A stretch of 64,000 bases of DNA, taken from NCBI GenBank assembly GCA_021292105.1, contig CM037868.1, positions 26,444,050 to 26,508,049 of the forward strand, read 5' to 3'. This stretch comes from Anadara kagoshimensis (Eukaryota; Mollusca; Bivalvia; Arcoida; Arcidae). Under the pieces are notes generated by a model. That model saw only the letters and a program-made list of their open reading frames with translations, had not been told where the DNA came from and made no database searches. Shown piece after piece: positions 1,840 to 35,924 of the stretch (the stretch's first letter is position 1; the number at the start of each line of letters is the position of its first letter). The position numbers and the translations under genes were made by a program.

Positions 1840-1927
1840 ACGAGGCTGAAGTGAGCCGACAATAACAGCCGACAATAACTTTCAGCCGACAATAAAGCCA
1901 GCCGACAATAAATAGGGTGCGTTCGGA
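1840..1927 (+). repeat. Left 88-bp terminal inverted repeat
   Basis: It begins ACGAGGCTGAAGTGAG and contains four copies of AGCCGACAATAA-type subrepeats, ending in GGGTGCGTTCGGA. It matches the right terminus at 86 of 88 positions. The iterated 12-mers look like repeated protein-binding sites, as often seen in transposon termini. Confidence 0.9.
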
Positions 1928-1929
1928 AA

Positions 1930-4900
1930 TCAGACTTTATGTACATAATAGAAATAACGTTATAAATATAAAAAAATATCTATATTTCTGGAAATTATAC
2001 GTTATGATCTCTTAACATAAATTATATAGAGTAATAGGTCCTTTATCAGGTATATACAGTCCGGATCCGGCAAAATATGTTAGATGGATCCAACCCGTTA
2101 CTTCAAATAGTCAAGATACAAGAAAATGTATAGATACGTCTTTTTGAATGTAAATTTCTCGAAATTCTACGTTATGATCTCTTAGCAAATTTGTGTATAG
2201 ACAGTGTTAAGAGTCCCCTATTAGGTGTATATAGTCCGGTCCTGGCAATAATTGTTAGGGTGATCGAACACGTGACTGCAAATTGTCAGAGGTGAAGATA
2301 ACACATAAAATGAACAATGAGATACGGCTTTTTGAATGTGAAATTCTGGAAATTCTACGTTATGATCTCTTAGCAAATTGGTGTATAGACAGTGTTAAGG
2401 GTACTCTATTAGGTGTATATAGTCCGGTCCTGGCAATAGTTGTTAGGGTAATCGAATCGGAGCTTGCAAATTATCAGAAGTAGAGATAACACATGAAACG
2501 AACAATAAAGATACGGCTTTTTCAATGTGAAATTCTCGAAATTCTACGTTATGATCTTTTAGCAAATTTGTGTATAGACAGTGTTAAGAGACATCTATTA
2601 GGTGTATATAGACCGGTCCTGGCAATAATTGTTAGGGGGATCGAATCCGAGCTTCCAAATTATCAGAGGTGAAGATAATACATGATATGAACAATGAAGA
2701 TACGTCTTTTTGAATGTGAATTTCTCGAAATTCTACGTTATGATCTCTTAGCAAATTTGTGTATAGACAGTGTTAAGAGTCCTTTATTAGGTGTATATAG
2801 ACCGGTTCTGGCAATAATTGTTAGGGTGATCGAATCCGAGCTTCCAAATTATCAGAGGTGAAGATAATACATGATATGAACAATGAAGATACGTTTTTTT
2901 TGAGTGTGAATTTCTCGAAATTCTACGTTATGATCTCTTAGCAAATTTGTGTATAGACAGTGTTAAGAGTCCCCTATTAGGTGTATATAGTCCGGTCCTG
3001 GCAATAATTGTTAGGGTGATATAACACGTGACTGCAAATTGTCAGAGGTGAAGATAACACATAAAATGAACAATGAGATACGGCTTTTTGAATGTGAAAT
3101 TCTGGAAATTCTACGTTATGATCTCTTAGCAAATTGGTGTATAGACAGTGTTAAGGGTACTCTATTAGGTGTATATAGTCCGGTCCTGGCAATAGTTGTT
3201 AGGGTGATCGAACACGTGACTGGAAATTGTCAGATATGAAGATAACACATGAAACGAACAATGATATACGGCTTTTTCAATGTGAAATTCTCGAAATTCT
3301 ACGTTATGATCTTTTAGCAAATTTGTGTATAGACAGTGTTAAGAGACCTCTATTAGGTGTATATAGACCGGTCCTGGCAATAATTGTTAGGGGGATCGAA
3401 TCCGAGCTTCCAAATTATCAGAGGTGAAGATAATACATGATATGAACAATGAAGATACGTCTTTTTGAATGTGAATTTCTCGAAATTCTACGTTATGATC
3501 TCTTAGCAAATTTGTGTATAGACAGTGTTAAGGGTACTCTATTAGGTGTATAGAGTCCGGTCCTGGCAATAGTTGTTAGGGGGATCGAATCCTAGCTTCC
3601 AAATTATCAGAAGTAGAGATAACACATGAAACAAACAATGAAGATATGGCTTTTTGAATGTGAAATTCTCGAAATTCTACGTTATAATCTCTTAGCAAAC
3701 TGGTGTATAGACAGTGTTAAGGGTACTCTATTAGGTGTATATAGTCCGGTCCTGGCAATAATTGTTAGGGGGGTCGAATCCGAGGCTGCAAATTATCTGA
3801 AGTAGTGATAATGCATAAAACGAACAATGAAGATACGGCTTTTTGAATGTGAAATTCTCGAAATCCTACGTTATGATCTCTTAGCAAACTGGTGTATAGA
3901 CAGTGTTAAGAGTACTCTATTAGGTGTATATAGTCCGGTCCTGGCAATAATTGTTAGGGGGGTCGAATCCAAGGCTGCAAATTATCAGAAGTAGAGATAA
4001 TACATAAAACGAACAATGAAGATACGGCTTTTTGAATGTGAAATTCTCGAAATTCTACGTTATGATCTGTTAGCAAATTTGTGTATAGACAGTGTTAAGG
4101 GTACCGTATTAGGTGTATATAGTCCGGTCCTGGCAATAATTGTTAGGGGGATCGAACCCGTGACTGAAAATTGTCAGAGGTGAAAATAACACATGAAATC
4201 AACAATGGAGATACGGCTTTTTGAATGTAAAATTCTCGAAACTCTACGTTATGATCTCTTAGCAAATGTGTGTATAGACAGTGTTAAGGGTACTCTATTA
4301 AGTGTATATAGTCCGGTCCTGGCAATAATTGTTAGGGGGATCGAACACGTGACTGGAAATTGTCAGAGGTGAAGGTAACACATGAAATGAACAAAGAAGA
4401 TATGGCTTTTTGAATGTGAAATTCTCGAAATTGTACGTTATGATCTCTTAGCAAATTTGTGTATAGACAGTGTTAAGGGTACTCTATTAAGTGTATATAG
4501 TCCGGTCCTGGCAATAATTGTTAGGGGGATCGAACACGTGACTGGAAATTGTCAGAGGTGAAGGTAACACATGAAATGAACAATGAAGATATGGCTTTTT
4601 GAATGTGAAATTCTCGAAATTGTACGTTATGATCTCTTAGCAAATTTGTGTATAGACAGTGTTAAGGGTACTCTATTAGGTGTATATAGTCCGGTCCTGG
4701 CAATAATTGTAAGGGGGATCGAATCCTAGCTTCCAAATTATCAGAGGTAGAGATAACACATGAAACGAACAATGAAGATATGGCTTTTTGAATGTGAAAT
4801 TCTCGAAATTCTACGTTATGATCTCTTAGCAAATTTGTGTATAGACAGTGTTAAGGGTACTCTATTAGGTGTATATAGTCCGGTCCTGGCAATAATTGTT

Positions 4901-7900
4901 AGGGGGATCGAATCCTAGCTTCCAAATTATCAGAGGTAGAGATAACACATGAAACGAACAATGAATAAACGGCTTTTTGAATGTGAAATTCTCGAAATTG
5001 TACGTTATGATCTGTTAGCAAATTTGTGTATTGACAGTGTTAAGGGTACCCTATTAGGTGTATATAGTCCTGTCCTGGCAATAGTTGTTAGGGGGATCGA
5101 ATCCTAGCTTGCAAATTATCAGAGGTAGAGATAACACATGAAACGAACAATGAATAAACGGCTTTTTGAATGTGAAATTCTCAAAATTCTACGTTATGAT
5201 CTCTTAGCAAATTTGTGTATAGACAGTGTTAAGGTACTCTTTTGAGTGTATATAGTCCGGTCCTGGCAATAATTGTTAGGGGGATCGAACCCGTGACTGC
5301 AAATTGTCAGAGGTGAAAATAACACATGAAATGAACAATGAAGATACGGCTTTTTGAATGTGAAATTCTGGAAATTCTACGTTATGATCTCTTAGCAAAT
5401 TGGGTATAGACAGTGTTAAGGGTACTCTATTAAGTGTATATAGTCCGGTCCTGGCAATAATTGTTAGGGGGATCGAACACGTGACTGGAAATTGTCAGAG
5501 GTGAAGGTAACACATGAAATGAACAATGAAGATATGGCTATTTGAATGTGAAATTCTCGAAATTGTACGTTATGATCTCTTAGCAAATTTGTGTATAGAC
5601 AGTGTTAAGGGTACTCTATTAAGTGTATATAGTCCGGTCCTGGCAATAATTGTTAGGGGGATCGAACACGTGACTGGAAATTGTCAGAGGTGAAGGTAAC
5701 ACATGAAATGAACAATGAAGATACGGCTTTTTGAATGTGAAATTCTCGAAATTCTACGTTATGATCTCTTAGCAAATTTGTGTATAGACAGTGTTAAGGG
5801 TACTCTATTAGGTGTATATAGTCCGGTCCTGGCAATAATTGTTAGAGGGATCGAATCGTAGCTTCCAAATTATCAGAAGTAAAGATAACACATGAAACGA
5901 ACAATGAAGATATGGCTTTTTGAATGTGAAATTCTCGAAATCCTACGTTATGATCTCTTAGCAAATTTGTGTATAGACAGTGTTAAGAGTCACCTATTAG
6001 CTGTATATAGTCCAGTCCTGGCAATAGTTGTTATGGGGATCGAATCCGAGCTTCCAAATTATCAGTGGTAGATATAACACATGGAACGAACAATGAATAA
6101 ACGGCTTTTTGAATGTGAAATTCTCAAAATTCTACGTTATGATCTCTTAGCAAATTTGTGTATAGACAGTGTTAAGGGTACTCTATTAAGTGTATATAGT
6201 CCGGTCCTTGCAATAATTGTTAGGGGGATCGAACACGTGACTGGAAATTGTCAGAGGTGAAGGTAACACATGAAATGAACAATGAAGATATGGCTTTTTG
6301 AATGTGAAATTCTCGAAATTGTACGTTATGATCTCTTAGCAAATTTAGATATAGACAGTGTTAAGGGTACTCTATTAGGTGTATATAGTCCGGTCCTGGC
6401 AATAATTGTAAGGGGATCGAATCCTAGCTTCCAAATTATCAGAGGTAGAGATAACACATGAAACGAACAATGAAGATATGGCTTTTTGAATGTGAAATTC
6501 TCGAAATTCTACGTTATGATCTCTTAGCAAATTTGTGTATAGACAGTGTTAAGGGTACTCTATTAGGTGTATATAGTCCGGTCCTGGCAATAATTGTTAA
6601 GGGTATCGAATCCTAGCTTCCAAATTATCAGAGGTAGAGATAACACATGAAACGAACAATGAAGATACGACGTTTTGAATGTGAAATTCTCAAAATTCTA
6701 CGTTATGATCTCTTAGCAAATTTGTGTATAGACAGTGTTAAGGTACCCTATTAGGTGTATATAGTCCGGTCATGGCAATAATTGTTAGGGGGATCGAACA
6801 CGTGACTGGAAATTGTCAGAGGTGAAGGTAGCACATGAAACAAACAATGAAGATATGGCATTTTGAATGTGAAATTCTCGAAATTGTACGTTATGATCTC
6901 TTAGCAAATTGGTGTATAGACAGTGTTAAGGGTACTCTATTAGGTGTATATAGTCCGGTCCTGGCAATAGTTGTTAAGGGATCGAATCCGAGCTTCCAAA
7001 TTATCAGAGGTAGAGACAACACATGAAATGAACAATGAAGATTCGGCTTTTTGAATGTGAAATTCTCGAAATTCTACGTTATGATCTCTTAGCAAACTGT
7101 GTATTGACAGTGTTAAGGGTACTCTATTAGGTGTATATAGTCCGGTCCTGGCAATAATTGTTAGGGGGGTCGAATCCGAGGCTGCAAATTATCTGAAGTA
7201 GTGAAAATACATAAAACGAACAATGAAGATACGGCTTTTTGAATGTGAAATTCTCGAAATTGTACGTTATGATCTCTTAGCAAACTGGTGTATTGACAGT
7301 GTTAAGGGTACTCTATTAGGTGTATATAGTCCGGTCCTGCAATAGTTGTTAGGGGGATCGAATCCTAGCTTGCAAATTATCAAAGATAGAGATAAACACA
7401 TGAAACGAACAATGAATAAACGGCTTTTTGAATGTAAATTCTCGAAACTCTACGTTATGATCTCTTAGCAAATTTGTGTATAGACAGTGTTAAGGGCACT
7501 CTATTAAGTGTATATAGTCCGGTCCTGGCAATAATTGTTAGGGGGATCGAACCCGTGACTGCAAATTGTCAGAGGTGAAAATAACACATGAAATGAGCAA
7601 TGAAGATACGGCTTTTTGAATGTGAAATTCTGGAAATTCTACGTTATGATCTCTTAGCAAATTGGTGTATAGACAGTGTTAAGGGTACTCTATTAGGTGT
7701 ATATAGTCCGGTCCTGGCAATAGTTGTTAGGGGGATCGAATCCTAGCTTCCAAATTATCAGAGGTAGAGATAACACATGAAACGAACAATGAAGATACTG
7801 CTTTTTGAATGTGAAATTCTCGAAATTCTACGTTATGATCTCTTAGCAAATTTGTGTATAGACAGTGTTAAGGGTACTCTATTAAGTGTATATAGTCCGG

Positions 7901-10900
7901 TCCTGGCAATAATTGTTAGGGGGATCGAACACGTGACTGGAAATTGTCAGAGGTGAAGGTAACACATGAAATGAACAATGAAGATATGGCTATTTGAATG
8001 TGAAATTCTCGAAATTGTACGTTATGATCTCTTAGCAAATTTGTGTATAGACAGTGTTAAGGGTACTCTATTAAGTGTATATAGTCCGGTCCTGGCAATA
8101 ATTGTTAGGGGGATCGAACACGTGACTGGAAATTGTCAGAGGTGAAGGTAACACATGAAATGAACAATGAAGATACGGCTTTTTGAATGTGAAATTCTCG
8201 AAATTCTACGTTATGATCTCTTAGCAAATTTGTGTATAGACAGTGTTAAGGGTACTCTATTAGGTGTATATAGTCCGGTCCTGGCAATAATTGTTAGAGG
8301 GATCGAATCGTAGCTTCCAAATTATCAGAAGTAAAGATAACACATGAAACGAACAATGAAGATATGGCTTTTTGAATGTGAAATTCTCGAAATCCTACGT
8401 TATGATCTCTTAGCAAATTTGTGTATAGACAGTGTTAAGAGTCACCTATTAGCTGTATATAGTCCAGTCCTGGCAATAGTTGTTATGGGGATCGAATCCG
8501 AGCTTCCAAATTATCAGTGGTAGATATAACACATGGAACGAACAATGAATAAACGGCTTTTTGAATGTGAAATTCTCAAAATTCTACGTTATGATCTCTT
8601 AGCAAATTTGTGTATAGACAGTGTTAAGGGTACTCTATTAAGTGTATATAGTCCGGTCCTGGCAATAATTGTTAGGGGGATCGAACACGTGACTGGAAAT
8701 TGTCAGAGGTGAAGGTAACACATGAAATGAACAATGAAGATATGGCTTTTTGAATGTGAAATTCTCGAAATTGTACGTTATGATCTCTTAGCAAATTTAG
8801 ATATAGACAGTGTTAAGGGTACTCTATTAGGTGTATATAGTCCGGTCCTGGCAATAATTGTTAGGGGTATCGAATCCTAGCTTCCAAATTATCAGAGGTA
8901 GAGATAACACATGAAACGAACAATGAAGATACGACGTTTTGAACGTGAAATTCTCAAAATTCTACGTTATGATCTCTTAGCAAATTTGTGTATAGACAGT
9001 GTTAAGGGTACCCTATTAGGTGTATATAGTCCGGTCATGGCAATAATTGTTAGGGGGGTCGAACACGTGACTGGAAATTGTCAGAGGTGAAGGTAGCACA
9101 TGAAACAAACAATGAAGATATGGCATTTTGAATGTGAAATTCTCGAAATTGTACGTTATGATCTCTTAGCAAATTTGTGTATAGACAGTGTTAAGGGTAC
9201 TCTATTAGGTGTATATAGTCCGGTCCTGGCAATAGTTGTTAAGGTGATCGAATCCGAGCTTCCAAATTATCAGAGGTAGAGACAACACATGAAATGAACA
9301 ATGAAGATTCGGCTTTTTGAATGTGAAATTCTCGAAATTCTACGTTATGATCTCTTAGCAAACTGGTGTATTGACAGTGTTAAGGGTACTCTATTAGGTG
9401 TATATAGTCCGGTCCTGGCAATAATTGTTAGGGGGGTCGAATCCGAGGCTGCAAATTATCTGAAGTAGTGAAAATACATAAAACGAACAATGAAGATACG
9501 GCTTTTTGAATGTGAAATTCTCGAAATTGTACGTTATGATCTCTTAGCAAACTGGTGTATTGACAGTGTTAAGGGTACTCTATTAGGTGTATATAGTCCG
9601 GTCCTGCAATAGTTGTTAGGGGGATCGAATCCTAGCTTGCAAATTATCAAAGGTAGAGATAACACATGAAACGAACAATGAATAAACGGCTTTTTGAATG
9701 TAAAATTCTCGAAACTCTACGTTATGATCTCTTAGCAAATTTGTGTATAGACAGTGTTAAGGGTACTCTATTAAGTGTATATAGTCCGGTTCTGGCAATA
9801 ATTGTTAGGGGGATCGAACCCGTGACTGCAAATTGTCAGAGGTGAAAATAACACATGAAATGAGCAATGAAGATACGGCTTTTTGAATGTGAAATTCTTG
9901 AAATTCTACGTTATGATCTCTTAGCAAATTTGTGTATAGACAGTGTTAAGGGTACTCTATTAGGTGTATATAGTCCGGTCCTGGCAATAATTGTAAGGGG
10001 GATCGAATCCTAGCTTCCAAATTATCAGAGGTAGAGATAACACATGAAACAAACAATAAAGATATGGCTTTTTGAATGTGAAATTCTCGAAATTCTACGT
10101 TATGATCTCTTAGCAAATTTGTGTATAGACAGTGTAAAGGGTACTCTATTAGGTGTATATAGTCCGGTCCTGGCAATAATTGTTAGGGGGATCGAATCCT
10201 AGCTTCCAAATTATCAGAGGTAGAGATAACACATGAAACGAACAATGAAGATACGACGGTTTGAATGTGAAATTCTCAAAATTCTACGTTATGATCTCTT
10301 AGCAAATTTGTGTATAGACAGTGTTAAGGGTACCCTATTAGGTGTATATAGTCCGGTCCTGGCAATAATTGTTAGGGGGATCGAACACGTGACTGGAAAT
10401 TGTCAGAGGTGAAGGTAACACATGAAATGAACAATGAAGATATGGCTTTTTGAATGTGAAATTCTCGAAATTGTACGTTATGATCTCTTAGCAAATTTGT
10501 CTATAGACAGTGTTAAGGGTACTCTATTAGGTGTATATAGTCCGGTCCTGACATTAGTTGTTAGGGGGATCGAATCCTAGCTTCCAAATTATCAGAGGTA
10601 GAGATAACACATGAAACAAACAATGAAGATATGGCATTTTGAATGTGAAATTCTCAAAATTCTACGTTATGATCTCTTAGCAAATTGGTGTATAGACAGT
10701 GTTATGGGTACTCTATTAGGTGTATATAGTCCGGTCCTGGCAATAGTTGCTACGGGGATCGAATCCTAGCTTCCAAATTATCAGAGGTAGAGACAACCAC
10801 ATGAAAGGAACAATGAAGATACGGCTTTTGAATGTGAAATTCTCAAAATTCTACGTTATGATCTCTTAGCAAATTTGTGTATAGACAGTGTTTAGGTACT

Positions 10901-13900
10901 CTATTAGGTGTATATAGTCCGGTCCTGGCAATAATTGTTAGGGGGATCGAACACGTGACTGGAAATTGTCAGAGGTGAAGGTAACACATGAAATGAACAA
11001 TGAAGATATTGCTTTTTGAATGTGAAATTCTCGAAATTGTACGTTATGATCTCTTAGCGAATTTGTGTATAGACAGTGTTAAGGGTACTCTATTAGGTGT
11101 ATATAGTCCGGTCCTGGCAATAGTTGTTAGGGGGATCGAATCCTAGCTTGCAAATTATCAGAGGTAGAGATAACACATGAAACGAACAATGAATAAACGG
11201 CTTTTTGAATGTGAAATTCTCGAAATTGTACGTTATGATCTGTTAGCAAATTTGTGTATAGACAGTGTTAAGGGTACTCTATTAGGTGTATATAGTCCGG
11301 TCCTGGCAATAATTGTTAGGGGGATCGAACACGTGACTGGAAATTGTCAGAGGTGAAGGTAACACATGAAATGAACAATGAAGATACGGCTTTTTGAATG
11401 TGAAATTCTCGAAATTGTACGTTATGATCTCTTAGCAAACTGGTGTATTGACAGTGTTAAGGGTACTCTATTAGGTGTATATAGTCCGGTCCTGCAATAG
11501 TTGTTAGGGGGATCGAATCCTAGCTTGCAAATTATCAAAGATAGAGATAACACATGAAACGAACAATGAATAAACGGCTTTTTGAATGTAAAATTCTCGA
11601 AACTCTACGTTATGATCTCTTAGCAAATTTGTGTATAGACAGTGTTAAGGGTACTCTATTAAGTGTATATAGTCCGGTCCTGGCAATAATTGTTAGGGGG
11701 ATCGAACCCGTGACTGCAAATTGTCAGAGGTGAAATAACACATGAAATGAGCAATGAAGATACGGCTTTTTGAATGTGAAATTCTGGAAATTCTACGTTA
11801 TGATCTCTTAGCAAATTGGTGTATAGACAGTGTTAAGGGTACTCTATTAGGTGTATATAGTCCGGTCCTGGCAATAGTTGTTAGGGGGATCGAATCCTAG
11901 CTTCCAAATTATCAGAGGTAGAGATAACACATGAAACGAACAATGAAGATACTGCTTTTTGAATGTGAAATTCTCGAAATTCTACGTTATGATCTCTTAG
12001 CAAATTTGTGTATAGACAGTGTTAAGGGTACTCTATTAAGTGTATATAGTCCGGTCCTGGCAATAATTGTTAGGGGGATCGAACACGTGACTGGAAATTG
12101 TCAGAGGTGAAGGTAACACATGAAATGAACAATGAAGATATGGCTATTTGAATGTGAAATTCTCGAAATTGTACGTTATGATCTCTTAGCAAATTTGTGT
12201 ATAGACAGTGTTAAGGGTACTCTATTAAGTGTATATAGTCGGTCCTGGCAATAATTGTTAGGGGGATCGAACACGTGACTGGAAATTGTCAGAGGTGAAG
12301 GTAACACATGAAATGAACAATGAAGATACGGCTTTTTGAATGTGAAATTCTCGAAATTCTACGTTATGATCTCTTAGCAAATTTGTGTATAGACAGTGTT
12401 AAGGGTACTCTATTAGGTGTATATAGTCCGGTCCTGGCAATAATTGTTAGAGGGATCGAATCGTAGCTTCCAAATTATCAGAAGTAAAGATAACACATGA
12501 AACGAACAATGAAGATATGGCTTTTTGAATGTGAAATTCTCGAAATCCTACGTTATGATCTCTTAGCAAATTTGTGTATAGACAGTGTTAAGAGTCACCT
12601 ATTAGCTGTATATAGTCCAGTCCTGGCAATAGTTGTTATGGGGATCGAATCCGATCCAAATTATCAGTGGTAGATATAACACAGGAACGAACAATGAATA
12701 AACGGCTTTTTGAATGTGAAATTCTCAAAATTCTACGTTATGATCTCTTAGCAAATTTGTGTATAGACAGTGTTAAGGGTACTCTATTAGTGTATATAGT
12801 CCGGTCCTGGCAATAATTGTTAGGGGGATCGAACACGTGACTGGAAATTGTCAGAGGTGAAGGTAACACATGAAATGAACAATGAAGATATGGCTTTTTG
12901 AATGTGAAATTCTCGAAATTCTACGTTATGATCTCTTAGCAAATTTGATATAGACAGTGTTAAGGGTACTCTATTAGGTGTATATAGTCCGGTCCTGGCA
13001 ATAATTGTTAGGGGTATCGAATCCTAGCTTCCAAATTATCAGAGGTAGAGATAACACATGAAACGAACAATGAAGATACGCGTTTTGAACGTGAAATTCT
13101 CAAAATTCTACGTTATGATCTCTTAGCAAATTTGTGTATAGACAGTGTTAAGGGTACCCTATTAGGTGTATATAGTCCGGTCATGGCAATAATTGTTAGG
13201 GGGTCGAACACGTGACTGGAAATTGTCAGAGGTGAAGGTAGCACATGAAACAAACAATGAAGATATGGCATTTGAATGTGAAATTCTCGAAATTGTACGT
13301 TATGATCTCTTAGCAAATTTGTGTATAGACAGTGTTAAGGGTACTCTATTAGGTGTATATAGTCCGGTCCTGGCAATAGTTGTTAAGGTGATCGAATCCG
13401 AGCTTCCAAATTATCAGAGGTAGAGACAACACATGAAATGAACAATGAAGATTCGGCTTTTTGAATGTGAAATTCTCGAAATTCTACGTTATGATCTCTT
13501 AGCAAACTGTGTATTGACAGTGTTAAGGGTACTCTATTAGGTGTATATAGTCCGGTCCTGGCAATAATTGTTAGGGGGGTCGAATCCGAGGCTGCAAATT
13601 ATCTGAAGTAGTGAAAATACATAAAACGAACAATGAAGATACGGCTTTTTGAATGTGAAATTCTCGAAATTGTACGTTATGATCTCTTAGCAAACTGTGT
13701 ATGACAGTGTTAAGGGTACTCTATTAGGTGTATATAGTCCGGTCCTGCAATAGTTGTTAGGGGATCGAATCCTAGCTTGCAAATTATCAAGGTAGAGATA
13801 ACACATGAAACGAACAATGAATAAACGGCTTTTTGAATGTAAAATTCTCGAAACTCTACGTTATGATCTCTTAGCAAATTTGTGTATAGACAGTGTTAAG

Positions 13901-19982: not shown

Positions 19983-20168
19983 AGTTGTAGAGGCGGAGCC
20001 TAACGATATGTTTGCTTTGGTTTTATTTGAATGATTTTGTCCTTAATTTGACCTAGGTCACCGTAACCACTTGTTGTAATTCACTTACAGCACGACAAAA
20101 CTGTGCTGTAACTAAATTACAGCACAGTTTGGGTTGAGGACAATGAAAATTAGGCTCCGCCCCTACAA
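19983..20168. mobile_element. Small TIR element (MITE-like), ~185 bp
   Basis: GTAGAGGCGGAGCCTAA near 19,985 pairs with TTAGGCTCCGCCCCTAC near 20,149-20,165. An internal palindrome (ACAGCACGACAAAACTGTGCTGTAA and its partner) fills the middle. It is non-coding and nested in the central spacer. Confidence 0.65.
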
Positions 20169-21140: not shown

Positions 21141-21247
21141 GATGTACAGTCCAACCTGCATTAAAGGTCACCTTTACCAGTTTACTTCAGTGCCACCTGT
21201 TTACAAAGGTCATTAGAATTGTATCCAAGTTAGACTTTATTCATAAT
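21141..21247 (-). repeat. Fragment of the ~109-bp dispersed repeat
   Basis: GTACAGTCCAACCTGC, then AAAGGTCACCTTTACC and TAGACTTTATTC match, in reverse orientation, the repeat at 36,960-37,160 and the tandem array near 62.5-63.3 kb. Confidence 0.65.
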
Positions 21248-21605
21248 AGCACCAGGGTTGGCATATCATTGAATATGATGTATCACCAAAGCACTGGGGT
21301 TGGTATATTATTTAATGTGATGTATAACTTTAGCACCGGGGTTGTTATATCATTAAATGTGATGTATATCCTTAGCACCGGTGTTGGTATATCAATTACT
21401 TGACTGTAGAACCTTAGCACCAGGGTTGGTATATCATTTACTTGACTGTAGAACCTTAGCACCGGGGATGGTATATCATTTACTTGACTGTAGAACCTTT
21501 GCACCGGGGTTGGTATATCATTTACTAGACTGTAGAACCTTATCACCGGGGTTGGTATATCATTTACTATATTGTAGAACCTTAGCACCAGGGTTGGTAT
21601 ATATT
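21248..21605 (+). repeat. 42-bp minisatellite, left part, ~8.5 units
   Basis: The unit reads like ACCTTAGCACCGGGGTTGG, then TATATCATTTACTTGACTGTAGA. Units farthest from the retroelement (21,248-21,370) are diverged, with GAATATGATG-type replacements. The unit length is a multiple of three, so long frames appear on both strands by default. The array resumes after the retroelement at 24,612. Confidence 0.95.
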
Positions 21606-21670
21606 ATTTATTCAAACAAATAAATAAGTCAACAATTAAACTTTCAGATATTTTTAATTATGATGACAAT

Positions 21671-22750: not shown

Positions 22751-24414
22751 TAACTGGTGATCTCAATATAATTGAGAACACCAAATTAAGATTTTTACTT
22801 TCAAAAGGTCCTAAATATAGAGAAGCTCAACCTTTTACTTGGGGACAGAATTTCCGACTTGTCATGGATTCCGTTGAAGAGTACGCCAGACGTTGGGCTA
22901 AATTAGAAGATGTTGAGCTTGATACCTTATCCGACTGGATAAAGGTTGTTAGATCTTTCGTTAAAACTAGGATTGCCAAACTTAAAGGGTCTATGAGTAC
23001 TAAACCGTCTTCAGTACTCAAGGATCCAGAAATCAAGGCAATTCTTACAGACATACACAACAAATATGTTGTTGTTCCAGCTGATAAGGCTTCCAACAAC
23101 ATTATTCTCGTTTGTAAGAGATTCTACCTTGAATGTCTTATTAAGGAGCTTGGTTTAGATAGTATATCAAATAACCCTGCATATTCTAGAACTAATTTTA
23201 CCAAAGATGAAGTTCTTTCCAACCATAGGGGAGTTCTCGAGTCTTTTGGTATCAATCTTAAAGAGGAAGATCTTGATCTTCCTTACTTGTATTGGATTCC
23301 TAAACTCCATAAAAATCCATACAAGGAAAGATATATAGCAGGCTCATCTAAATGTACTACTAAATCATTATCGATAACTCTAACACAAATTTTGACAATC
23401 GTCAAAGATGGTCTTCAGTCTTATTCAGAAAAAGTATATTCTACATCTGGAATCAACCAAATGTGGATTCTAAAAAATTCTAAAGAATTACTTGAACATC
23501 TTGCTTCTAATACTTTATCTCATGTAAAAAGTATAAAAACATTTGATTTTTCTACACTATACACCACAATCCCTCATTCTAAATTGAAAGAACGTCTTAA
23601 AGAAATTATTCACTTGTCTTTCTTCTACAAAAACGGTAAGCCAAGATACAAATATCTGGTGCTGAACAGGGATTCTGGTTATTTTGTCAAGCATCATACG
23701 GATTCCAAACAAAAATATACTGAAGATACCATCAACAAAATGTTGGCGTTTTTGATAGATAACATATTTGTTGTGTTTGGTAATATAGTATTTCAGCAAA
23801 CAATCGGTATACCAATGGGTACAAACTGTGCACCATTGCTTGCTGATTTGTTTCTTTATTCTTACGAAGCAGAATTTATGCAGAACCTTGTTAAATCTGG
23901 AGAGAAAACTGTCGCCAAATCATTCAACTCAACATACAGATACATAGATGACGTTCTGTCTCTTAACAATCCTAAATTTGGAGACTATGTAAATGTCATC
24001 TATCCTAGTGAGCTTGAAATAAAAGACACGACTGATTCCTCAAGTTCTGCTTCATATTTAGACTTATACCTGAATTATGACGCACAAGAAAGGCTACATT
24101 TGAAACTTTATGACAAACGTGATGACTTCAATTTTTCTATTGTCAACTTTCCTTTTTTATGCAGCAATATACCTGCTTCTCCTGCTTATGGTGTATTTGT
24201 TTCCCAATTAATACGCTATGGTAGAGCTTGTTCCCACTACGGGGACTTTGTACAAAGAAGTAGGCTGCTTGCAAATAAATTGTTGACTCAGGGATATTGC
24301 AAGCCTAGGCTTATCAAGGCCCTCAAAAAGTTTTATGGCCGTCATCACAGTATTGTTGATAAGTTTGATGTCTCTGTGTCCAGGATTGCCTTGGATATAT
24401 TTGACGTCTCATAG
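22669..24414 (+). CDS. Naiad reverse transcriptase part
   Basis: This is the RT half, copying element RNA into DNA at the nicked target. The first ~22 residues are out of frame with the genuine protein. Real homology starts near TAGHVITGDL (residues 23-32), the conserved segment after the CxC linker. A conserved N-terminal stretch follows (MDSVEEYARRWAK, VVVPADKASNNI). RT motif A is FDFSTLYTTIP with Asp293. Motif B is IGIPMGTNCAP (379-389). Motif C is YIDD (425-428). The roughly 80 residues between motifs A and B are long, consistent with an extended fingers-type insertion region known in this clade and in telomerase. No internal stop or in-frame UGA is seen to the TAG at 24,412. RT motifs are intact, so the insertion is fairly young apart from the single frameshift. 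Confidence 0.92.
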   Translation: MFKLSQFYSTYLLLLVFSLYLWTAGHVITGDLNIIENTKLRFLLSKGPKYREAQPFTWGQNFRLVMDSVEEYARRWAKLEDVELDTLSDWIKVVRSFVKTRIAKLKGSMSTKPSSVLKDPEIKAILTDIHNKYVVVPADKASNNIILVCKRFYLECLIKELGLDSISNNPAYSRTNFTKDEVLSNHRGVLESFGINLKEEDLDLPYLYWIPKLHKNPYKERYIAGSSKCTTKSLSITLTQILTIVKDGLQSYSEKVYSTSGINQMWILKNSKELLEHLASNTLSHVKSIKTFDFSTLYTTIPHSKLKERLKEIIHLSFFYKNGKPRYKYLVLNRDSGYFVKHHTDSKQKYTEDTINKMLAFLIDNIFVVFGNIVFQQTIGIPMGTNCAPLLADLFLYSYEAEFMQNLVKSGEKTVAKSFNSTYRYIDDVLSLNNPKFGDYVNVIYPSELEIKDTTDSSSSASYLDLYLNYDAQERLHLKLYDKRDDFNFSIVNFPFLCSNIPASPAYGVFVSQLIRYGRACSHYGDFVQRSRLLANKLLTQGYCKPRLIKALKKFYGRHHSIVDKFDVSVSRIALDIFDVS

Positions 24415-24611
24415 TTCCATGTTCCTTTCACACAATTTTGATTACACACGTGACGGGTGTAGCTAGCTAAACAGGAGGTGCTTACCCTTCCGGAGCACCC
24501 GGCCTCACTTCCCTGGTGGAAGTTCACGTGTCTAACCTAACTTGTCAGTTCCAAAGTTTTTACTTTGCTTCTGGATTGTGATTCGGAAATGGATAAGTAT
24601 GTTTGTTTTTG
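24415..24611 (+). other. Naiad 3' untranslated region
   Basis: Starts TTCCATGTTCCTTTCACAC and contains GGTGTAGCTAGCTAA, GGAGGTGCTTACCCTTCC, GGTGGAAGTTCACGTGT and TTTTTACTTTGCTTCTGG. These blocks are the yardstick by which the dispersed truncated copies in the window are recognised. It ends without a poly-A tail. Confidence 0.85.
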
Positions 24612-25645
24612 ATTTATTAGACTGTTTAACTTTAGCACCGGGGTTGTTATATCATTTACTAGACTGTTTAACTTTAGCACCGGGGTTGTTATATCATTTA
24701 TTAGACTGTTTAACCTTAGCACCGGGGTTGTTATATCATTTATTAGACTGTTTAACCTTAGCACCGGGGTTGTTATATCATTTATTAGACTGTTTAACCT
24801 TAGCACCGGGGTTGGTATATCATTTATTAGACTGTTTAACCTTAGCACGGGGGTTGTTATATCATTTATTAGACTGTTTAACCTTAGCACCGGGGTTGGT
24901 ATATCATTTATTAGACTGTTTAACCTTAGCACCGGGGTTGTTATATCATTTATTAGACTGTTTAACCTTAGCACCGGGGTTGGTATATCATTTATTAGAC
25001 TGTTTAACCTTAGCACCGGGGTTGTTATATCATTTATTAGACTGCTTAACTTTAGCACCTGGGTTGGTATATCATTTACTAGACTGTTTAACTTTAGCAT
25101 CGGGGTTTTTTATATCATTTACTAGACTGAAGAACCTTAGCACCGGGGTTGGTATATCATTTATTAGACTGTTTAACTTTAGCTCCTGGGTTGGTATATC
25201 ATTTATTAGACTGTTTAACTTTAGCTCCTGGGTTGGTATATCATTTACTGGACTGTTTAACCTTAGCACCGGGGTTAGTATAACATTTACTAGACTTTTT
25301 AACTTTAGCACCGGGGTTAGTATAACATTTACTAGACTTTTTAACCTTAGCACCGGGGTTGGTATATCATTTACTAGACTGTAGAACCTTAGCACCGGGG
25401 TTAGTATAACATTTACTAGACTTTTTAACTTTAGCACCAGGGTTGGTATAACATTACTAGACTGAAGAACCTTAGCACCGGGGTTGGTATATCATTTACT
25501 AGACTGTAGAACCTTAGCACCGGGGTTAGTATAACATTTACTAGACTTTTTAACTTTAGCACCAGGGTTGGTATAACATTACTAGACTGAAGAACCTTAG
25601 CACCGGGGTTGGTATATCATTTACTAGACTGTTTAACCTTAGCAC
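24612..25645 (+). repeat. 42-bp minisatellite, right part, ~24.6 units
   Basis: Units of the form TTAGCACCGGGGTTGGTATA, then TCATTTATTAGACTGTTTAACC. Variants alternate GTTGTTATATC with GTTGGTATATC in the first dozen copies, then switch to AGTATAACATTTACTAGAC types near 25,260-25,560. The array joins the 188-bp satellite directly at ACCTTAGCACCCTTAACAC. Confidence 0.97.
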
Positions 25646-28600
25646 CCTTAACACTGTCTATACACAAATTTGCTAAGAGATCATAACGTAGAATTTCGAG
25701 AATTTCACATTCAAAAAGCCGTATTTTCATTGTTCATTTCATGTATTATCTCTACCTCTGATAATTTGCAGCCTCGGGTTCGATCCCCATAACAATTATT
25801 GCCAGGACCGGACTATATACACCTAATAAGGGACCCTTAACACTGTCTATACCTAAATTTGCTAAGAGATCATAACGTAGAATTTCGAGAATTTCACATT
25901 CAAAAAGCCGTATCTTCATTGTTCGTTTCATGTATTATCTCTACCTCTGATAATTTGGAAGCTAGGATTCGATCCCCCTAACAATTATTGCCAGGACCGG
26001 ACTATATACACCTAATAGAGTACCCTTAACACTGTCTATACACAAATTTGCTAAGAGATCATAACGTAGAATTTCGAGAATTTCACATTCAAAAAGCCAT
26101 ATCTTCATTGTTCGTTTCATGTGTTATCTCTACCTCTGATAATTTGGAAGCTAGGATTCGATCCCCCTTACAATTATTGCCAGGACCGGACTATATACAC
26201 CTAATAGAGTACCTTTAACACTGTCTATACACAGAGAATTTCACATTCAAAAAGCCGTATTTTCATTGTTCATTTCATGTATTATCTCTACCTCTGATAA
26301 TTTGCAGCCTCGGGTTCGATCCCCATAACAATTATTGCCAGGACCGGACTATATACACCTAATAAGGGACCCTTAACACTGTCTAAACACAAATTTCCTA
26401 AGAGATCATAACGTAAAATTTCGAGAATTTCACATTCAAAACGTCGTATCTTCATTGTTCGTTTCATGTGTTATCTCTACCTCTGATAATTTGGAAGCTA
26501 GGATTCGATCCCCCTAACAATTATTGCCAGGACCGGACTATATACACCTAATAGAGTACCCTTAACACTGTCTATACACAAATTTGCTAAGAGATCATAA
26601 CGTAGAATTTCGAGAATTTCACATTCAAAAAGCCATATCTTCATTGTTCGTTTCATGTGTTATCTCTACCTCTGATAATTTGGAAGCTAGGATTCGATCC
26701 CCCTTACAATTATTGCCAGGACCGGACTATATACACCTAATAGAGTACCTTTAACACTGTCTATACACAAATTTGCTAAGAGATCATAACGTACAATTTC
26801 GAGAATTTCAAATTCAAAAAGCCATATCTTCATTGTTCATTTCATGTGTTACCTTCACCTCTGACAATTTCCAGTCACGTGTTCGATCCCCTAACAATTA
26901 TTGCCAGAACCGGACTATATACACCTAATAGGGTACCCTTAACACTGTCTATACACAAATTTGCTAAGAGATCATAACGTAGAATTTCGAGAATTTCTCA
27001 TTCAAAAAGCCGTATTTTTATTGTTCGTTTCTTGTATTATCTCTACCTCTGATAATTTGCAGCCTCGGGTTCGATCCCTCTAACAATTATTGCCAGGAAT
27101 GGACTATATACACCTAATAGGGTACCCTTAACACTGTCTATACACAAATTTGCTAAGAGATCATAACGTAGAATTTCGAGAATTTCTCATTCAAAAAGCC
27201 GTATTTTTATTGTTCGTTTCTTGTATTATCTCTACCTCTGATAATTTGCAGCCTCGGGTTCGATCCCCCTAACAATTATTGCCAGGAATGGACTATATAC
27301 ACCTAATAGAGTACCCTTAACACTGTCTATACACAAATTTACTAAGAGATCATAACGTAGAATTTCGAGAATTTCACATTCAAAAAGCCGTATCTTCATT
27401 GTTCATTTCATGTATTATCTTCACCTCTGACAATTTGCAGTCACGGGTTCGATCACCCTAACAATTATTGCCATCACCGGACTATATACACCTAATAAGG
27501 GACCCTTAACACTGTCTATACACAAATTTGCTAAGAGATCATAACGTAGAATTTCGAGAATTTCACATTCAAAAAGCCGTATTTTATTGTTCGTTTCATG
27601 TATTATCTCTACCTCTGATAATCTGCAGCCCCGGGTTCGATCCCCCTAACAATTATTGCCAGGACCGGACTGTATACACCTAATAGAGTACCCTTAACAC
27701 TGTCTATACACAAATTTGCTAAGAGATCATAACGTAGAATTTCGAGAATTTCACATTCAAAAAGCCGTATTTTCATTGTTCATTTCATGTATTATCTCTA
27801 CCTCTGATAATTTGCAGCTCGGGTTCGAACCCCCTAACAATTATTGCCAGGACCGACTATATACACCTAATAAGGGACCCTTAACACTGTCTATACACAA
27901 ATTTGCTAAGAGATCATAACGTAGAATTTCGAGAATTTCATATTCAAAAAGCCGTATTTTTATTGTTCGTTTCATGTATTATCTCTACCTCTGATAATCT
28001 GCAGCCCCGGGTTCGATCCCCCTAACAATTATTGCCAGGACCGGACTATATACACCTAATAGGGTACCCTTAACACTGTCTATACACAAATTTGCTAAGA
28101 GATCATAACGTAGAATTTCGAGAATTTCACATTCAAAAAGCCGTATCTTCATTACTCATTTCATGTATTATCTCTACCTCTGATAATTTGCAAGCTCGGA
28201 TTCGATCCCCCTAACAATTATTGCCAGGACCGGACTATATACACCTAATAGAGTACCCTTAACACTGTCTATACACAAATTTGCTAAGAGATCATAACGT
28301 AAAAATTTCGAGAATTTCACATTCAAAAAGCCGTATCTTCATTGTTCGTTTCATGTATTATCTCTACCTCTGATAATTTGCAGCCTCGGTTCGATCCCCC
28401 TAACAATTATTGCCAGGACCGGACTATATACACCTAATAGAGTACCCTTAACACTGTCTATACACAAATTTACTAGAGATCATAACGTAGAATTTCGAGA
28501 ATTTCACATTCAAAAAGCCGTATCTTCATTGTTCATTTCATGTATTATCTTCACCTCTGACAATTTGCAGTCACGGGTTCGATCACCCTAACAATTATTG

Positions 28601-31600
28601 CCATCACCGGACTATATACACCTAATAAGGGGCCCTTAACACTGTCTATACACAAATTTGCTAAGAGATCATAACGTAGAATTTCGAGAATTTCACATTC
28701 AAAAAGCCGTATCTTCATTGTTCGTTTCATGTATTATCTCTACCTCTGATAATTTGCAGCCTCGGGTTCGATCCCCCTAACAATTATTGCCAGGACCGGA
28801 CTATATACACCTAATAGAGTACCCTTAACACTGTCTGAACACAAATTTGCTAAGAGATCATAACGTAGAATTTCGAGAATTTCACATTCAAAACGTCGTA
28901 TCTTCATTGTTCGTTTCATGTGTTATCTCTACCTCTGATAATTTGCAAGCTCCGATTCGATCCCCCTAACAACTATTGCCAGGACTGGACTATATACACT
29001 TAATAGAGTACCCTTAACACTGTCTATACACAAATTTGCTAAGAGATCATAACGTAGAATTTTGAGAATTTCACATTCAAAAAGCCGTTTATTCATTGTT
29101 CGTTTCATGTGTTATCTCTACCTCTGATAATTTGCAAGCTAGGATTCGATCCCCCTAACAACTATTGCCAGGACCGGACTATATACACCTAATAGCGTAC
29201 CCTTAACACTGTCAATACACAAATTTGCTAACAGATCATAACGTAGAATTTCGAGAATTTCACATTCAAAAAGCCGTATCTTCATTGTTCTTTTGATGTA
29301 TTATCTCTACTTCTGATAATTTGCAGCCTCGGATTCGATCCCCCTAACAATTATTGCCAGGACCGGACTATATACAGCTGATAGAGTACCCTTAACACTG
29401 TCTATACACCAGTTTGCTAAGAGATCATAACGTAGGATTTCGAGAATTTCACATTCAAAAAGCCGTTTCTTCATTGTTCATTTTATTTATCTTCACCTGT
29501 GATAACTTGCAGCCCTGGGTTCGATGCCCCTAACAATTATTGCCAGGACCGGACTATATACACCTAATAGGGTACCCTTAACACTGTCTAAAGACAAATT
29601 TGCTAAGAGATCATAACATAGAATTTCGAGAATTTCACATTCAAAAAGCCGTATCTCATTGTTCATATCATGTATTATCTTCACCTCTGACAAATAGCAG
29701 TCACGGGTTTCGATCCCCCTAACAATTATTGCCAGGACCGGACTATATACACCTAATAGGGTACCCTTAACACTGTCTAAACACAAATTTGCTAAGATTT
29801 CATAACGTAGAATTTCCAGAATTTCACATTCAAAAAGCCGTTTCTTCATTGTTCATTTTACGTATTATCTTCACCTGTGATAACTTGCAGCCCTGGATTC
29901 GACCCCCCTAACAACTATTGCCAGGACCGGACTATATAAACCTAATAGGGTACCCTTAACGCTGTCTATACACAAATATGCTAAGAGATCATAACGTAGA
30001 ATTTCGAGATATTCACATTCAAAAAGCCATATCTTCATTGCTCGTTTCATGTGTTATCTCTACTTCTGATAATTTGCAAGCTCCGATTCGATCCCCCTAA
30101 CAACTATTGCCAGGACCGGACTATATACACCTAATAGAGTACCCTTAACACTGTCTATACACAAATTTGCTAAGAGATCATAACGTAGAATTTCGAGAAT
30201 TTCACATTCAAAAAGCCGTATCTTCATTGTTCATGTCATGCGTTATTTTCACCTCTGACAATTTGCAGTCACGGGTTCGATCCCCCTAACAATTATTGCC
30301 AGGACCGGACTATATACACCTAATAGAGTACCCTTAACACTGTCTAAACACAAATTTCCTAAGAGATCATAACGTAAAATTTCGAGAATTTCACATTCAA
30401 AACGTCGTATCTTCATTGTTCGTTTCATGTGTTATCTCTACCTCTGATAATTTGGAAGCTAGGATTCGATCCCCCTAACAATTATTGCCAGGACCGACTA
30501 TATACACCTAATAGAGTACCCTTAACACTGTCTATACACAAATTTGCTAAGAGATCATAACGTAGAATTTCGAGAATTTCACATTCAAAAAGCCATATCT
30601 TCATTGTTCGTTTCATGTGTTATCTCTACCTCTGATAATTTGGAAGCTAGGATTCGATCCCCCTTACAATTATTGCCAGGACCGGACTATATACACCTAA
30701 TAGAGTACCTTTAACACTGTCTATATACAAATTTGCTAAGAGATCATAACGTACAATTTCGAGAATTTCACATTCAAAAAGCCATATCTTCATTGTTCAT
30801 TTCATGTGTTACCTTCACCTCTGACAATTTCCAGTCACGTGTTCGATCCCCCTAACAATTATTGCCAGAACCGGACTATATACACCTAATAGGGTACCCT
30901 TAACACTGTCTATACACAAATTTGCTAAGAGATCATAACGTAGAATTTCGAGAATTTCTCATTCAAAAAGCCGTATTTTTATTGTTCGTTTCTTGTATTA
31001 TCTCTACCTCTGATAATTTGCAGCCTCGGGTTCGATCCCTCTAACAATTATTGCCAGGAATGGACTATATACACCTAATAGGGTACCCTTAACACTGTCT
31101 ATACACAAATTTGCTAAGAGATCATAACGTAGAATTTCGAGAATTTCTCATTCAAAAAGCCGTATTTTTATTGTTCGTTCTTGTATTATCTCTACCTCTG
31201 ATAATTTGCAGCCTCGGGTTCGATCCCTCTAACAATTATTGCCAGGAATGGACTATATACACCTAATAGTACCCTTAACACTGTCTATACACAAATTTAC
31301 TAAGAGATCATAACGTAGAATTTCGAGAATTTCACATTCAAAAAGCCGTATCTTCATTGTTCATTTCATGTATTATCTTCACCTCTGACAATTTGCAGTC
31401 ACGGGTTCGATCACCCTAACAATTATTGCCATCACCGGACTATATACACCTAATAAGGGACCCTTAACACTGTCTATACACAAATTTGCTAAGAGATCAT
31501 AACGTAGAATTTCGAGAATTTCACATTCAAAAAGCCGTATTTTTATTGTTCGTTTCATGTATTATCTCTACCTCTGATAATCTGCAGCCCCGGGTTCGAT

Positions 31601-34600
31601 CCCCCTAACAATTATTGCCAGGACCGGACTGTATACACCTAATAGAGTACCCTTAACACTGTCTATACACAAATTTGCTAAGAGATCATAACGTAGAATT
31701 TCGAGAATTTCACATTCAAAAAGCCGTATTTTCATTGTTCATTTCATGTATTATCTCTACCTCTGATAATTTGCAGCCTCGGGTTCGATCCCCCTAACAA
31801 TTATTGCCAGGACCGGACTATATACACCTAATTAGGGACCCTTAACACTGTCTATACACAAATTTGCTAAGAGATCATAACGTAGAATTTCGAGAATTTC
31901 ATATTCAAAAAGCCGTATTTTTATTGTTCGTTTCATGTATTATCTCTACCTCTGATAATCTGCAGCCCCGGGTTCGATCCCCCTAACAATTATTGCCAGG
32001 ACCGGACTATATACACCTAATAGGGTACCCTTAACACTGTCTATACACAAATTTGCTAAGAGATCATAACGTAGAATTTCGAGAATTTCACATTCAAAAA
32101 GCCGTATCTTCATTACTCATTTCATGTATTATCTCTACCTCTGATAATTTGCAAGCTCGGATTCGATCCCCCTAACAATTATTGCCAGGACCGGACTATA
32201 TACACCTAATAGAGTACCCTTAACACTGTCTATACACAAATTTGCTAAGAGATCATAACGTAAAAATTTCGAGAATTTCACATTCAAAAAGCCGTATCTT
32301 CATTGTTCGTTTCATGTATTATCTCTACCTCTGATAATTTGCAGCCTCGGGTTCGATCCCCCTAACAATTATTGCCAGGACCGGACTATATACACCTAAT
32401 AGAGTACCCTTAACACTGTCTATACACAAATTTACTAAGAGATCATAACGTAGAATTTCGAGAATTTCACATTCAAAAAGCCGTATCTTCATTGTTCATT
32501 TCATGTATTATCTTCACCTCTGACAATTTGCAGTCACGGGTTCGATCACCCTAACAATTATTGCCATCACCGGACTATATACACCTAATAAGGGGCCCTT
32601 AACACTGTCTATACACAAATTTGCTAAGAGATCATAACGTAGAATTTCGAGAATTTCACATTCAAAAAGCCGTATTTTTATTGTTCGTTTCATGTATTAT
32701 CTCTACCTCTGATAATCTGCAGCCCCGGGTTCGATCCCCCTAACAATTATTGCCAGGACCGGACTATATACACCTAATAGGGTACCCTTAACACTGTCTA
32801 TACATAAATTTGCTAAGAGATCATAACGTAGAATTTCGAGAATTTCACATTCAAAAAGCCGTATCTTCATTGTTCGTTTCATGTATTATCTCTACCTCTG
32901 ATAATTTGCAGCCTCGGGTTCGATCCCCCTAACAATTATTGCCAGGACCGGACTATATACACCTAATAGAGTACCCTTAACACTGTCTGAACACAAATTT
33001 GCTAAGAGATCATAACGTAGAATTTCGAGAATTTCACATTCAAAAAGCCGTATCTTCATTGTTCGTTTCATGTGTTATCTCTACCTCTGATAATTTGGAA
33101 GCTAGGATTCGATCCCCCTAACAATTATTGCCAGGACCGGACTATATACACCTAATAGAGTACCCTTAACACTGTCTATACACAAATTTGCTAAGAGATC
33201 ATAACGTAGAATTTCGAGAATTTCACATTCAAAAAGCCATATCTTCATTGTTCGTTTCATGTGTTATCTCTACCTCTGATAATTTGGAAGCTAGGATTCG
33301 ATCCCCCTTACAATTATTGCCAGGACCGGACTATATACACCTAATAGAGAACCTTTAACAATGTCTATACACAAATTTGCTAAGAGATCATAACGTACAA
33401 TTTCGAGAATTTCACATTCAAAAAGCCATATCTTCATTGTTCATTTCATGTGTTACCTTCACCTCTGACAATTTCCAGTCACGTGTTCGATCCCCCTAAC
33501 AATTATTGCCAGAACCGGACTATATACACCTAATAGAGTACCCTTAACACTGTCTATACACAAATTTGCTAAGAGATCATAACGTAGAATTTCGAGAATT
33601 TCTCATTCAAAAAGCCGTATTTTTATTGTTCGTTTCTTGTATTATCTCTACCTCTGATAATTTGCAGCCTCGGGTTCGATCCCTCTAACAATTATTGCCA
33701 GGAATGGACTATATACACCTAATAGAGTACCCTTAACACTGTCTATACACAAATTTACTAAGAGATCATAACGTAGAATTTCGAGAATTTCACATTCAAA
33801 AAGCCGTATCTTCATTGTTCATTTCATGTATATCTTCACCTCTGACAATTTGCAGTCACGGGTTCGATCACCCTAACAATTATTGCCATCACCGGACTAT
33901 ATACACCTAATAAGGGACCCTTAACTGTCTATACACAAATTTGCTAAGAGATCATAACGTAGAATTTCGAGAATTTCACATTCAAAAAGCCGTATTTTTA
34001 TTGTTCGTTTCATGTATTATCTCTACCTCTGATAATCTGCAGCCCCGGGTTCGATCCCCCTAACAATTATTGCCAGGACCGGACTGTATACACCTAATAG
34101 AGTACCCTTAACACTGTCTATACACAAATTTGCTAAGAGATCATAACGTAGAATTTCGAGAATTTCACATTCAAAAAGCCGTATGTTCATTGTTCATTTC
34201 ATGTATTATCTCTACCTCTGATAATTTGCAGCCTCGGGTTCGATCCCCCTAACAATTATTGCCAGGACCGGACTATATACACCTAATAAGGGACCCTTAA
34301 CACTGTCTATACACAAATTTGCTAAGAGATCATAACGTAGAATTTCGAGAATTTCATATTCAAACAGCCGTATTTTTATTGTTCGTTTCATGTATTATCT
34401 CTACCTCTGATAATCTGCAGCCCCGGGTTCGATCCCCCTAACAATTATTGCCAGAACCGGACTATATACACCTAATAGGGTACCCTTAACACTGTCTATA
34501 CACAAATTTGCTAAGAGATCATAACGTAGAATTTCGAGAATTTCACATTCAAAAAGCCGTATCTTCATTATTCATTTCATGTATTATCTCTACCTCTGAT

Positions 34601-35795
34601 AATTTGCAAGCTCGGATTCGATCCCCCTAACAATTATTGCCAGGACCGGACTATATACACCTAATAGAGTACCCTTAACACTGTCTATACACAAATTTGC
34701 TAAGAGATCATAACGTAAAAATTTCGAGAATTTCACATTCAAAAAGCCGTATCTTCATTGTTCGTTTCATGTATTATCTCTACCTCTGATAATTTGCAGC
34801 CTCGGGTTCGATCCCCCTAACAATTATTGCCAGGACCGGACTATATACACCTAATAGAGTACCCTTAACACTGTCTATACACAAATTTACTAAGAGATCA
34901 TAACGGAGAATTTCACATTCAAAAAGCCGTATCTTCATTGTTCATTTCATGTATTATCTTCACCTCTGACAATTTGCAGTCACGGGTTCGATCACCCTAA
35001 CAATTATTGCCATCACCGGACTATATACACCTAATAAGGGGCCCTTAACACTGTCTATACACAAATTTGCTAAGAGATCATAACGTAGAATTTCGAGAAT
35101 TTCACATTCAAAAAGCCGTATTTTTATTGTTCGTTTCATGTATTATCTCTACCTCTGATAATCTGCAGCCCCGGGTTCGATCCCCCTAACAATTATTGCC
35201 AGGACCGGACTATATACACCTAATAGGGTACCCTTAACACTGTCTATACATAAATTTGCTAAGAGATCATAACGTAGAATTTCGAGAATTTCACATTCAA
35301 AAAGCCGTATCTTCATTGTTCGTTTCATGTATTATCTCTACCTCTGATAATTTGCAGCCTCGGGTTCGATCCCCCTAACAATTATTGCCAGGACCGGGCT
35401 ATATACACCTAATAGGGTACCCTTAACACTGTCTATACACAAATTTACTAAGAGATCATAACGTAGAATTTCGAGAATTTCACATTCAAAAGCCGTATCT
35501 TTATTGTTCGTTTCATGTATTATCTCTACCTCTGATAATCTGCAGCCCCGGTTCGATCCCACTAACAATTATTGCCATCACCGGACTATATACACCTAAT
35601 ACGGTACCCTTAACACTGTCTATACACGAATTTGCTAAGATATCATAACGTAGAATTTCCAGATTTCACATTCAATAAATCGTTTCTTCATTTTTCATTT
35701 TATGTATTATCTTCACAACTGACAATTTGCAACCTCAGATTCGACCCCCCTAACAATTATTGCCAGTACCGGACTATATACACCTGATAGAAAAA
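25646..35795 (-). repeat. Right satellite array, ~188-bp unit, about 54 copies, inverted
   Basis: Same unit as the left arm, read here as its reverse complement (GTTCGATCCCCCTAACAATT, then TTGCCAGGACCGGACTATAT). The subtype carrying CCAGTCACGTGTTCGATCC recurs at ~26,870, 30,830 and 33,475, giving a higher-order period of about 14 and 21 units. The same subtype exists in the left arm. Several units have short deletions (for example near 26,225 and 34,905). The last units before the terminus are diverged. Confidence 0.97.
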
Positions 35796-35836
35796 ATACA
35801 TGCACCCATTGGTAATTTATTTTTCTGAATAACAGA
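35796..35836. other. Inner junction between right array and terminus
   Basis: About 40 bp of AT-rich sequence (CATGCACCCATTGGTAATTT and following) with no match seen elsewhere in the window. Confidence 0.5.
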
Positions 35837-35924
35837 TCCGAACGCACCCTATTTATTGTCGGCTGGCTTTATTGTCGGCTCAAAGTTATTGTCGGCTGTT
35901 ATTGTCGGCTCACTTCAGCCTAGT
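35837..35924 (-). repeat. Right 88-bp terminal inverted repeat
   Basis: Reverse complement of the left terminus with two differences. It contains four TTATTGTCGGCT-type subrepeats and ends CTTCAGCCTAGT next to the duplicated CATATGCAC. Confidence 0.9.

Follow-up and report, generated by a model that had tools for sequence, protein, structure and literature searches.

A family of foldback transposons, a known kind of element of which Tetris and Tm1 are the closest examples, inhabits the genome of the bivalve Anadara kagoshimensis, and nearly all of its copies carry a 189-bp satellite as two opposed arms. We assign a probability of about 0.86 to the reading that these are non-autonomous, cut-and-paste foldback-type DNA transposons with opposed satellite arms. 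The features expected of foldback elements were found: inverted arms of tandem repeats in 17 of the 18 copies read end to end, a duplication of about 9 bp at the target (exact in 20 of 23), and many insertion sites together with empty sites. We count against this reading the missing transposase, shared monomer runs within the range of shuffles, the flanks of elements E14 and L034, and the stability of the pair E01/E02. The family stands out by the size of its satellite arms and because the satellite is probably almost confined to the element.

The window, by which we mean the whole stretch of 64,000 nucleotides that was analysed, contains no N and holds the largest of the paired elements (34,085 bp) on contig C12 (Table 1). 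The sequence-only reading had described 88-bp inverted ends with two mismatches and the 9-bp CATATGCAC directly outside both of them. Both statements were confirmed: the ends match at 86 of 88 positions (0.977), and CATATGCAC flanks the element on either side, with a third copy at 20861 inside the core. The proposed satellite of about 188 bp is indeed opposed in the two arms, as delimited by BLAST and counted by TRF, but its unit length is 189 bp. Misassembly of the general design is unlikely because the same design recurs on many contigs, and the array length of the window copy is as reliable as its assembly and no more so. Outside the element, TRF located tandem arrays at 37251-38451 (165-bp unit) and 62559-63317 (108-bp unit). 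Searches of the window returned no Rfam match at gathering scores and, with bacterial settings, no tRNA gene.

Table 1. Features of the window element (positions within the window)
Feature	Positions	Strand
Target site duplication, left copy, 9 bp, CATATGCAC	1831..1839	
Left terminal inverted repeat, starting ACGAGG, with four AGCCGACAATAA modules	1840..1927	+
Left subterminal part, a diverged satellite monomer preceded by about 60 unique bp	1928..2131	+
Left arm, array of about 85 satellite units of 189 bp	1986..18332	+
Element centre, mostly mobile elements of other kinds and their remnants; 447 bp at its start 98% like element E09	18321..25643	
Left piece of a DNA transposon remnant (OTU-protease reading frame; compare L056)	18331..18719	+
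Abundant dispersed repeat	18735..19986	+
OTU-type transposon remnant, right-end piece including its terminal inverted repeat	20235..20665	+
42-bp tandem repeats before the retroelement	21247..21602	+
Open frame with GIY-YIG endonuclease domain, Penelope-like retroelement	21578..22750	+
Open frame with RVT_1 match below the curated cut-off, same Penelope-like retroelement	22657..24414	+
42-bp tandem repeats after the retroelement	24612..25646	+
Right arm, 189-bp satellite in orientation opposite to the left arm, about 54 units	25641..35791	-
Right subterminal part, 45 bp, shared by most copies at that end	35792..35836	-
Right terminal inverted repeat, starting ACTAGG, near invariant among copies	35837..35924	-
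Target site duplication, right copy, 9 bp	35925..35933	

The 7.3-kb centre of the window element, absent from the earlier description, is largely made of other mobile elements. The two OTU-type pieces are the two sides of one DNA transposon, with dispersed repeats between and after them. It occurs in fuller form at L056 (C4:54686000-54692000), where it includes an OTU-protease frame and is bounded by inverted ends measuring about 37 bp, and pieces of it are present at about eight other places. This transposon was rejected as the master element of the family, as its ends differ. The retroelement insert, at 21603-24611 (from 21578 with its first open frame) and with 42-bp tandem repeats on both sides, was classed as Penelope-like by its combination of a reverse transcriptase with a GIY-YIG endonuclease, the match to PF01541 (GIY-YIG) lying above its cut-off and that to PF00078 (RVT_1, E 3.3e-5) below. 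The GIY-YIG domain precedes the reverse transcriptase, which is the arrangement of Naiad elements. Among the 40 retroelement copies scored of 4177 candidates, about 12 are full-length at 98-100% identity, indicating recent activity and a young element; the remaining scored copies are mostly 5'-truncated and share the same 3' side. Of the window copy's core, element E09 retains the first 447 bp alone, up to a point inside the dispersed repeat. The two copies share this core at the same array junction and have different 9-bp flanks, so that an element bearing the core has moved, and parts were later lost or gained.

Further copies of the terminus were found throughout the genome (1.115 Gb, 36 contigs). 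A 35-bp end piece had 55 places at no more than three mismatches, against none for its backwards control, and the similarity of the ends is therefore not due to chance. The inner 28 bp of the end gave 65 places and the outer 24 bp gave 70, again with controls at 0; three of the weakest outer matches, once read, resembled another repeat. The genome-wide search for the 88-bp terminus that the sequence-only reading proposed thus showed that the ends are not unique to the window. Pairing convergent neighbouring ends yielded 27 elements of 1,875 to 34,085 bp (median 9,565), of which 17 were read end to end and ten are known by their ends, parts or coordinates. Some ends stay single, several of them having no partner within the stretch examined around each. 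L034 (about 9.1 kb on contig C7), in which both ends are present, was kept outside the 27 because one of them is incomplete.

The copies share a common design. Left ends start with ACGAGG and right ends with ACTAGG, and all 23 pairs read have one of each, the sole change being AGG in E07. Of the 18 copies read end to end, 17 run from one end through a subterminal part and satellite to the centre, and from there through satellite in opposite orientation and a second subterminal part to the other end; the exception, L034, has short satellite pieces only. Of the 20 centres read, seven contain a spacer of about 87 bp, whose orientation is consistent with that of the ends, and two, those of the window copy and E09, have unrelated sequence as a core; in the remaining eleven the arms abut directly, joined at differing points. 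The plainest account would be an ancestor with a central spacer followed by repeated deletions at the centre. In the ends of E16 (L039, L040) and E19 (L044, L045), the left and right types seem to have swapped inner modules, which suggests conversion between ends. Three copies on C17 (at 12843290, 13059292 and 14159694), one of them inverted, share one common flank at distances of about 0.2 to 1.3 Mb; two are 21.5 kb long, no far end was found for the third, and the group looks like a segmental duplication.

Different 9-bp flanks and variable arrays had been predicted for a mobile family, and both were observed. An exact 9-bp duplication surrounds 20 of the 23 elements with both ends read, which represent 21 sites because two segmental-duplicate pairs (E01/E02 and E20/E21) are among them. 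The other three are E08 with one mismatch, E01 with a one-base slip and E14 with no duplication; L034, outside the 23, has no clear 9-bp duplication. Empty sites were identified for two copies other than the window element. E05 (1.9 kb) is lodged in repeated sequence that resembles a LINE end by eye. When 40 of the 175 candidates for its joined flank (400 bp) were scored, 41 matches resulted, and all but one of these cross the join. Three such sites, when read, had one GTTGCTCAG each where E05 has GTTGCTCGG twice. E09 (14.3 kb) interrupts a frame that by eye resembles a LINE reverse transcriptase. Scoring 40 of the 918 candidates for its joined flank gave 40 matches: two are its own flanks, and 38 cross the join at 73-93%, with 90-92% identity for the longest three of the best join-crossing matches. 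The empty sites of E09 were identified by coordinates alone, whereas for E05 the letters of three were read. These related insert-free sites show insertion, and not the size of the element when it inserted. Family copies, flanks, arrays and empty sites together support the earlier view of a foldback-like, apparently non-autonomous and mobile element, and the family was probably active recently.

The frames that were scanned against Pfam yielded no transposase, and apart from the window element and E09 the copies leave little room for one; none of the copies read with these ends is coding. The genome contains at least 76 hits to MULE transposases (150 of 152 candidates scored), none of them within 88 kb of the 72 family ends. 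An autonomous copy was not found among the variant ends L057, L058, L059, L034 and L036 either. L057, L058 and L059 belong to a group of four 3-mismatch matches, and by eye their resemblance to the 88-bp end is confined to its outermost bases; scanning one frame of L057 and one of L058 gave no Pfam match. The 16 frames scanned in L034 and L036 included no transposase and gave two weak, below-cut-off matches to unrelated families (Adeno_E3B, V1R_C); the 13 of L034 covered 12 of its 24 interior frames of at least 58 aa, and the three of L036 were other than its longest frame (169 aa, in a repeated stretch). Duplications of the Mutator superfamily measure 8-11 bp, mostly 9 bp, and the family agrees with this in its 20 exact duplications out of 23. 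A Mutator-type enzyme is our best guess and a reasonably probable one, judging from the 9-bp duplication and the parallel with Tm1 (PMC3169594).

The monomers record how the arms grow. When 742 monomers were compared and ties were given first to the same arm, 379 had their nearest relative in their own arm, 14 in the opposing arm of their element and 349 elsewhere. The nearest monomer in other elements, the two segmental pairs being omitted, was in the same-side arm in 539 cases and in the opposite side in 133, with 70 ties. The same-side preference and the local nearest matches indicate that the arms are largely separate lineages, inherited with the ends and duplicating locally; the satellite grows by local tandem duplication, and exchange between arms is rare. 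Within arms of 15 or more units, similarity between monomers is lowest at the outside, as in many satellite arrays: the fraction of monomers that have a close copy is 0.27 in the outer fifth and 0.35-0.52 further in. Duplication in place is visible in L029 (2118-9108), where a 1.8-kb insert with about 0.77 kb of satellite occurs three times in tandem at 98% similarity; all three repeats align to a single place in its segmental twin L030, and the outer flank is 99.5% alike. The segmental twins E01 and E02, however, are collinear (99.2% over 10.4 kb), so arrays are not always fluid. In monomer order, sites share runs of at most six units where 20 shuffles reach 4 to 8, which counts against long arrays having travelled. 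The proposal of a satellite array mobilised as a very large transposon therefore holds for the mobility of the family, while monomer order gives no evidence of movement at 34 kb.

We propose that a transposase supplied in trans probably binds the 88-bp ends through their four AGCCGACAATAA modules; insertion duplicates 9 bp of the target, as is seen in the flanks. The two opposed 189-bp arrays between the ends of nearly every copy belong to the element and pass on together with its ends, a view supported by the left and right lineages. Each arm lengthens and shortens by tandem duplication, of which L029 is an instance, and by loss, and may do so at rest or during transposition-linked repair. 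The middle gains or loses other sequence, and in the window copy it contains a decayed OTU-type transposon, dispersed repeats and a young Penelope-like retroelement.

An alternative reading takes the structure for a composite, in which two short elements flank a satellite array, or for an error of assembly; it would accommodate the absence of a duplication at E14 and the ends that lack a partner in the stretch examined. It is highly improbable in view of the 27 convergent pairs and the combination of one left-type with one right-type end in each of the 23 pairs read, and for the family it is refuted by the exact duplications around whole units and the empty sites. Accepting a foldback transposon, arm length could change mainly at excision, gap copying or insertion and not slowly at rest. 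The window copy is identical to E22 over the first 261 bp and has about one difference from E20/E21 (467 against 471 bits), yet these elements measure 34.1, 3.0 and 21.5 kb and have different 9-bp flanks, whereas the segmental twins E01/E02 and E20/E21 kept their lengths, the latter at 21,474 and 21,465 bp with 204 bp of flank 99% alike. However, the arrays of L029 and L030 changed in place, near-identical ends may come from conversion, no difference in 261 positions is still compatible with about 1% divergence, and E22 monomers lie on average 1.8% from their nearest relative, so that growth coupled to transposition appears plausible but doubtful.

The origin of the satellite can be approached through its distribution. 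A satellite 33-mer had 1575 matches in the genome, 875 of which fall in family sequence that was read: 658 belong to full elements, 189 to 10-kb loci and 28 to end pieces. From the density in the full elements, 658 in 145.7 kb, the unread parts of other paired elements are estimated to contain roughly 600 more, leaving about 100 unassigned by estimate; among the matches listed, all on C2, the places fall in four known elements. Most of the satellite thus lies, by estimate, within these elements, with room for free arrays of modest size, and near confinement is likely. A small transposon could have taken up a satellite that already existed in the genome, which would agree with the unassigned matches and with an 88-bp end that resembles the monomer no more than shuffles do (150 of 300 as good); for the same reason, the end modules were rejected as the source of the monomer. 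Against such capture, which we consider unlikely, stand the estimated confinement and two variant copies with short monomer pieces at the right end, as expected of a subterminal origin. L034 has variant ends, an 8-kb interior without satellite, an interrupted left arm of about 2.5 monomers and a 37-bp monomer piece at the right end. L036, on C12, has a similar right end with a 26-bp piece at the same place, and the two share several hundred bases of interior beside it (256 bp at 80%, BLAST); the central spacer was found in neither. Both fit a stage before amplification, and reduction from larger arms may also explain them. Of the earlier wording, mobilised as or grown within, growth within the element fits better than capture, given 539 same-side against 133 opposite-side matches (70 ties) and the confinement estimate. 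A bolder reading, to which we give somewhat less than even odds, is of a satellite that exists only as foldback arms, was born subterminally, forms two separate lineages and grew to tens of kilobases around transposition.

Foldback FB elements of Drosophila melanogaster have inverted arms of short tandem units, 9-bp duplications and a variable middle; the present family differs in its 189-bp unit and its far longer arms. Helitron and Helentron elements have, to our knowledge, neither target site duplications nor terminal inverted repeats, and membership among them was rejected because the family has terminal inverted repeats and 9-bp duplications. Those of bivalves, in the portions of the accounts available, resemble the family as mobile elements with satellite-like arrays, carried centrally, whereas here the arrays are two and opposed, with 9-bp duplications (PMC7492417, PMC12628747, PMC11136912). 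The closest systems, set beside ours by description, are Tetris and Tm1. As far as its description extends in the sections available, Tetris of Drosophila virilis is a non-autonomous foldback with tandem repeats of about 220 bp inside long inverted ends, 8-10 bp duplications and no transposase found, and its repeat number differs between two allelic copies (PMC4079207). Its ends reach at most 1,735 bp in three structurally complete copies, against arms of up to 16 kb and 27 paired copies here, and its repeats also form kilobase-size satellite-like arrays, whereas little of our satellite lies outside by estimate (PMC4079207). Tm1, a Mutator/Foldback family of Meloidogyne, is similar according to the available part of its account: its composite ends contain modules of 13-15 bp repeated in tandem, in numbers that vary, the short outer motif differs from one end to the other, and duplications are mostly of 9 bp (PMC3169594). 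Some Tm1 copies code for a putative transposase, in contrast to the lack of a coding copy found here, and that part of the account mentions no satellite arms, which are present in our family (PMC3169594). DNA elements above 20 kb are treated as unusual in the available part of a review of giant transposons (PMC6431247). The open-licence literature contained no report that we could find of this family or of equally long foldback arms, which is weak evidence.

How satellite arrays originate, expand and disperse has long been asked, and transposons have been suspected of being their nurseries. A single family within a single genome here offers two dozen insertions with arms of about 2 to more than 80 monomers, in which the separate left and right lineages serve as built-in controls and the segmental twins allow array change to be timed. 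The family also provides, within an assembled genome, opposed repeats of very large size that are a possible substrate for inversions and breakage. If the satellite was indeed born and amplified as foldback arms, this one family would show the whole path from a few monomers, as in L034, to arms of 16 kb.
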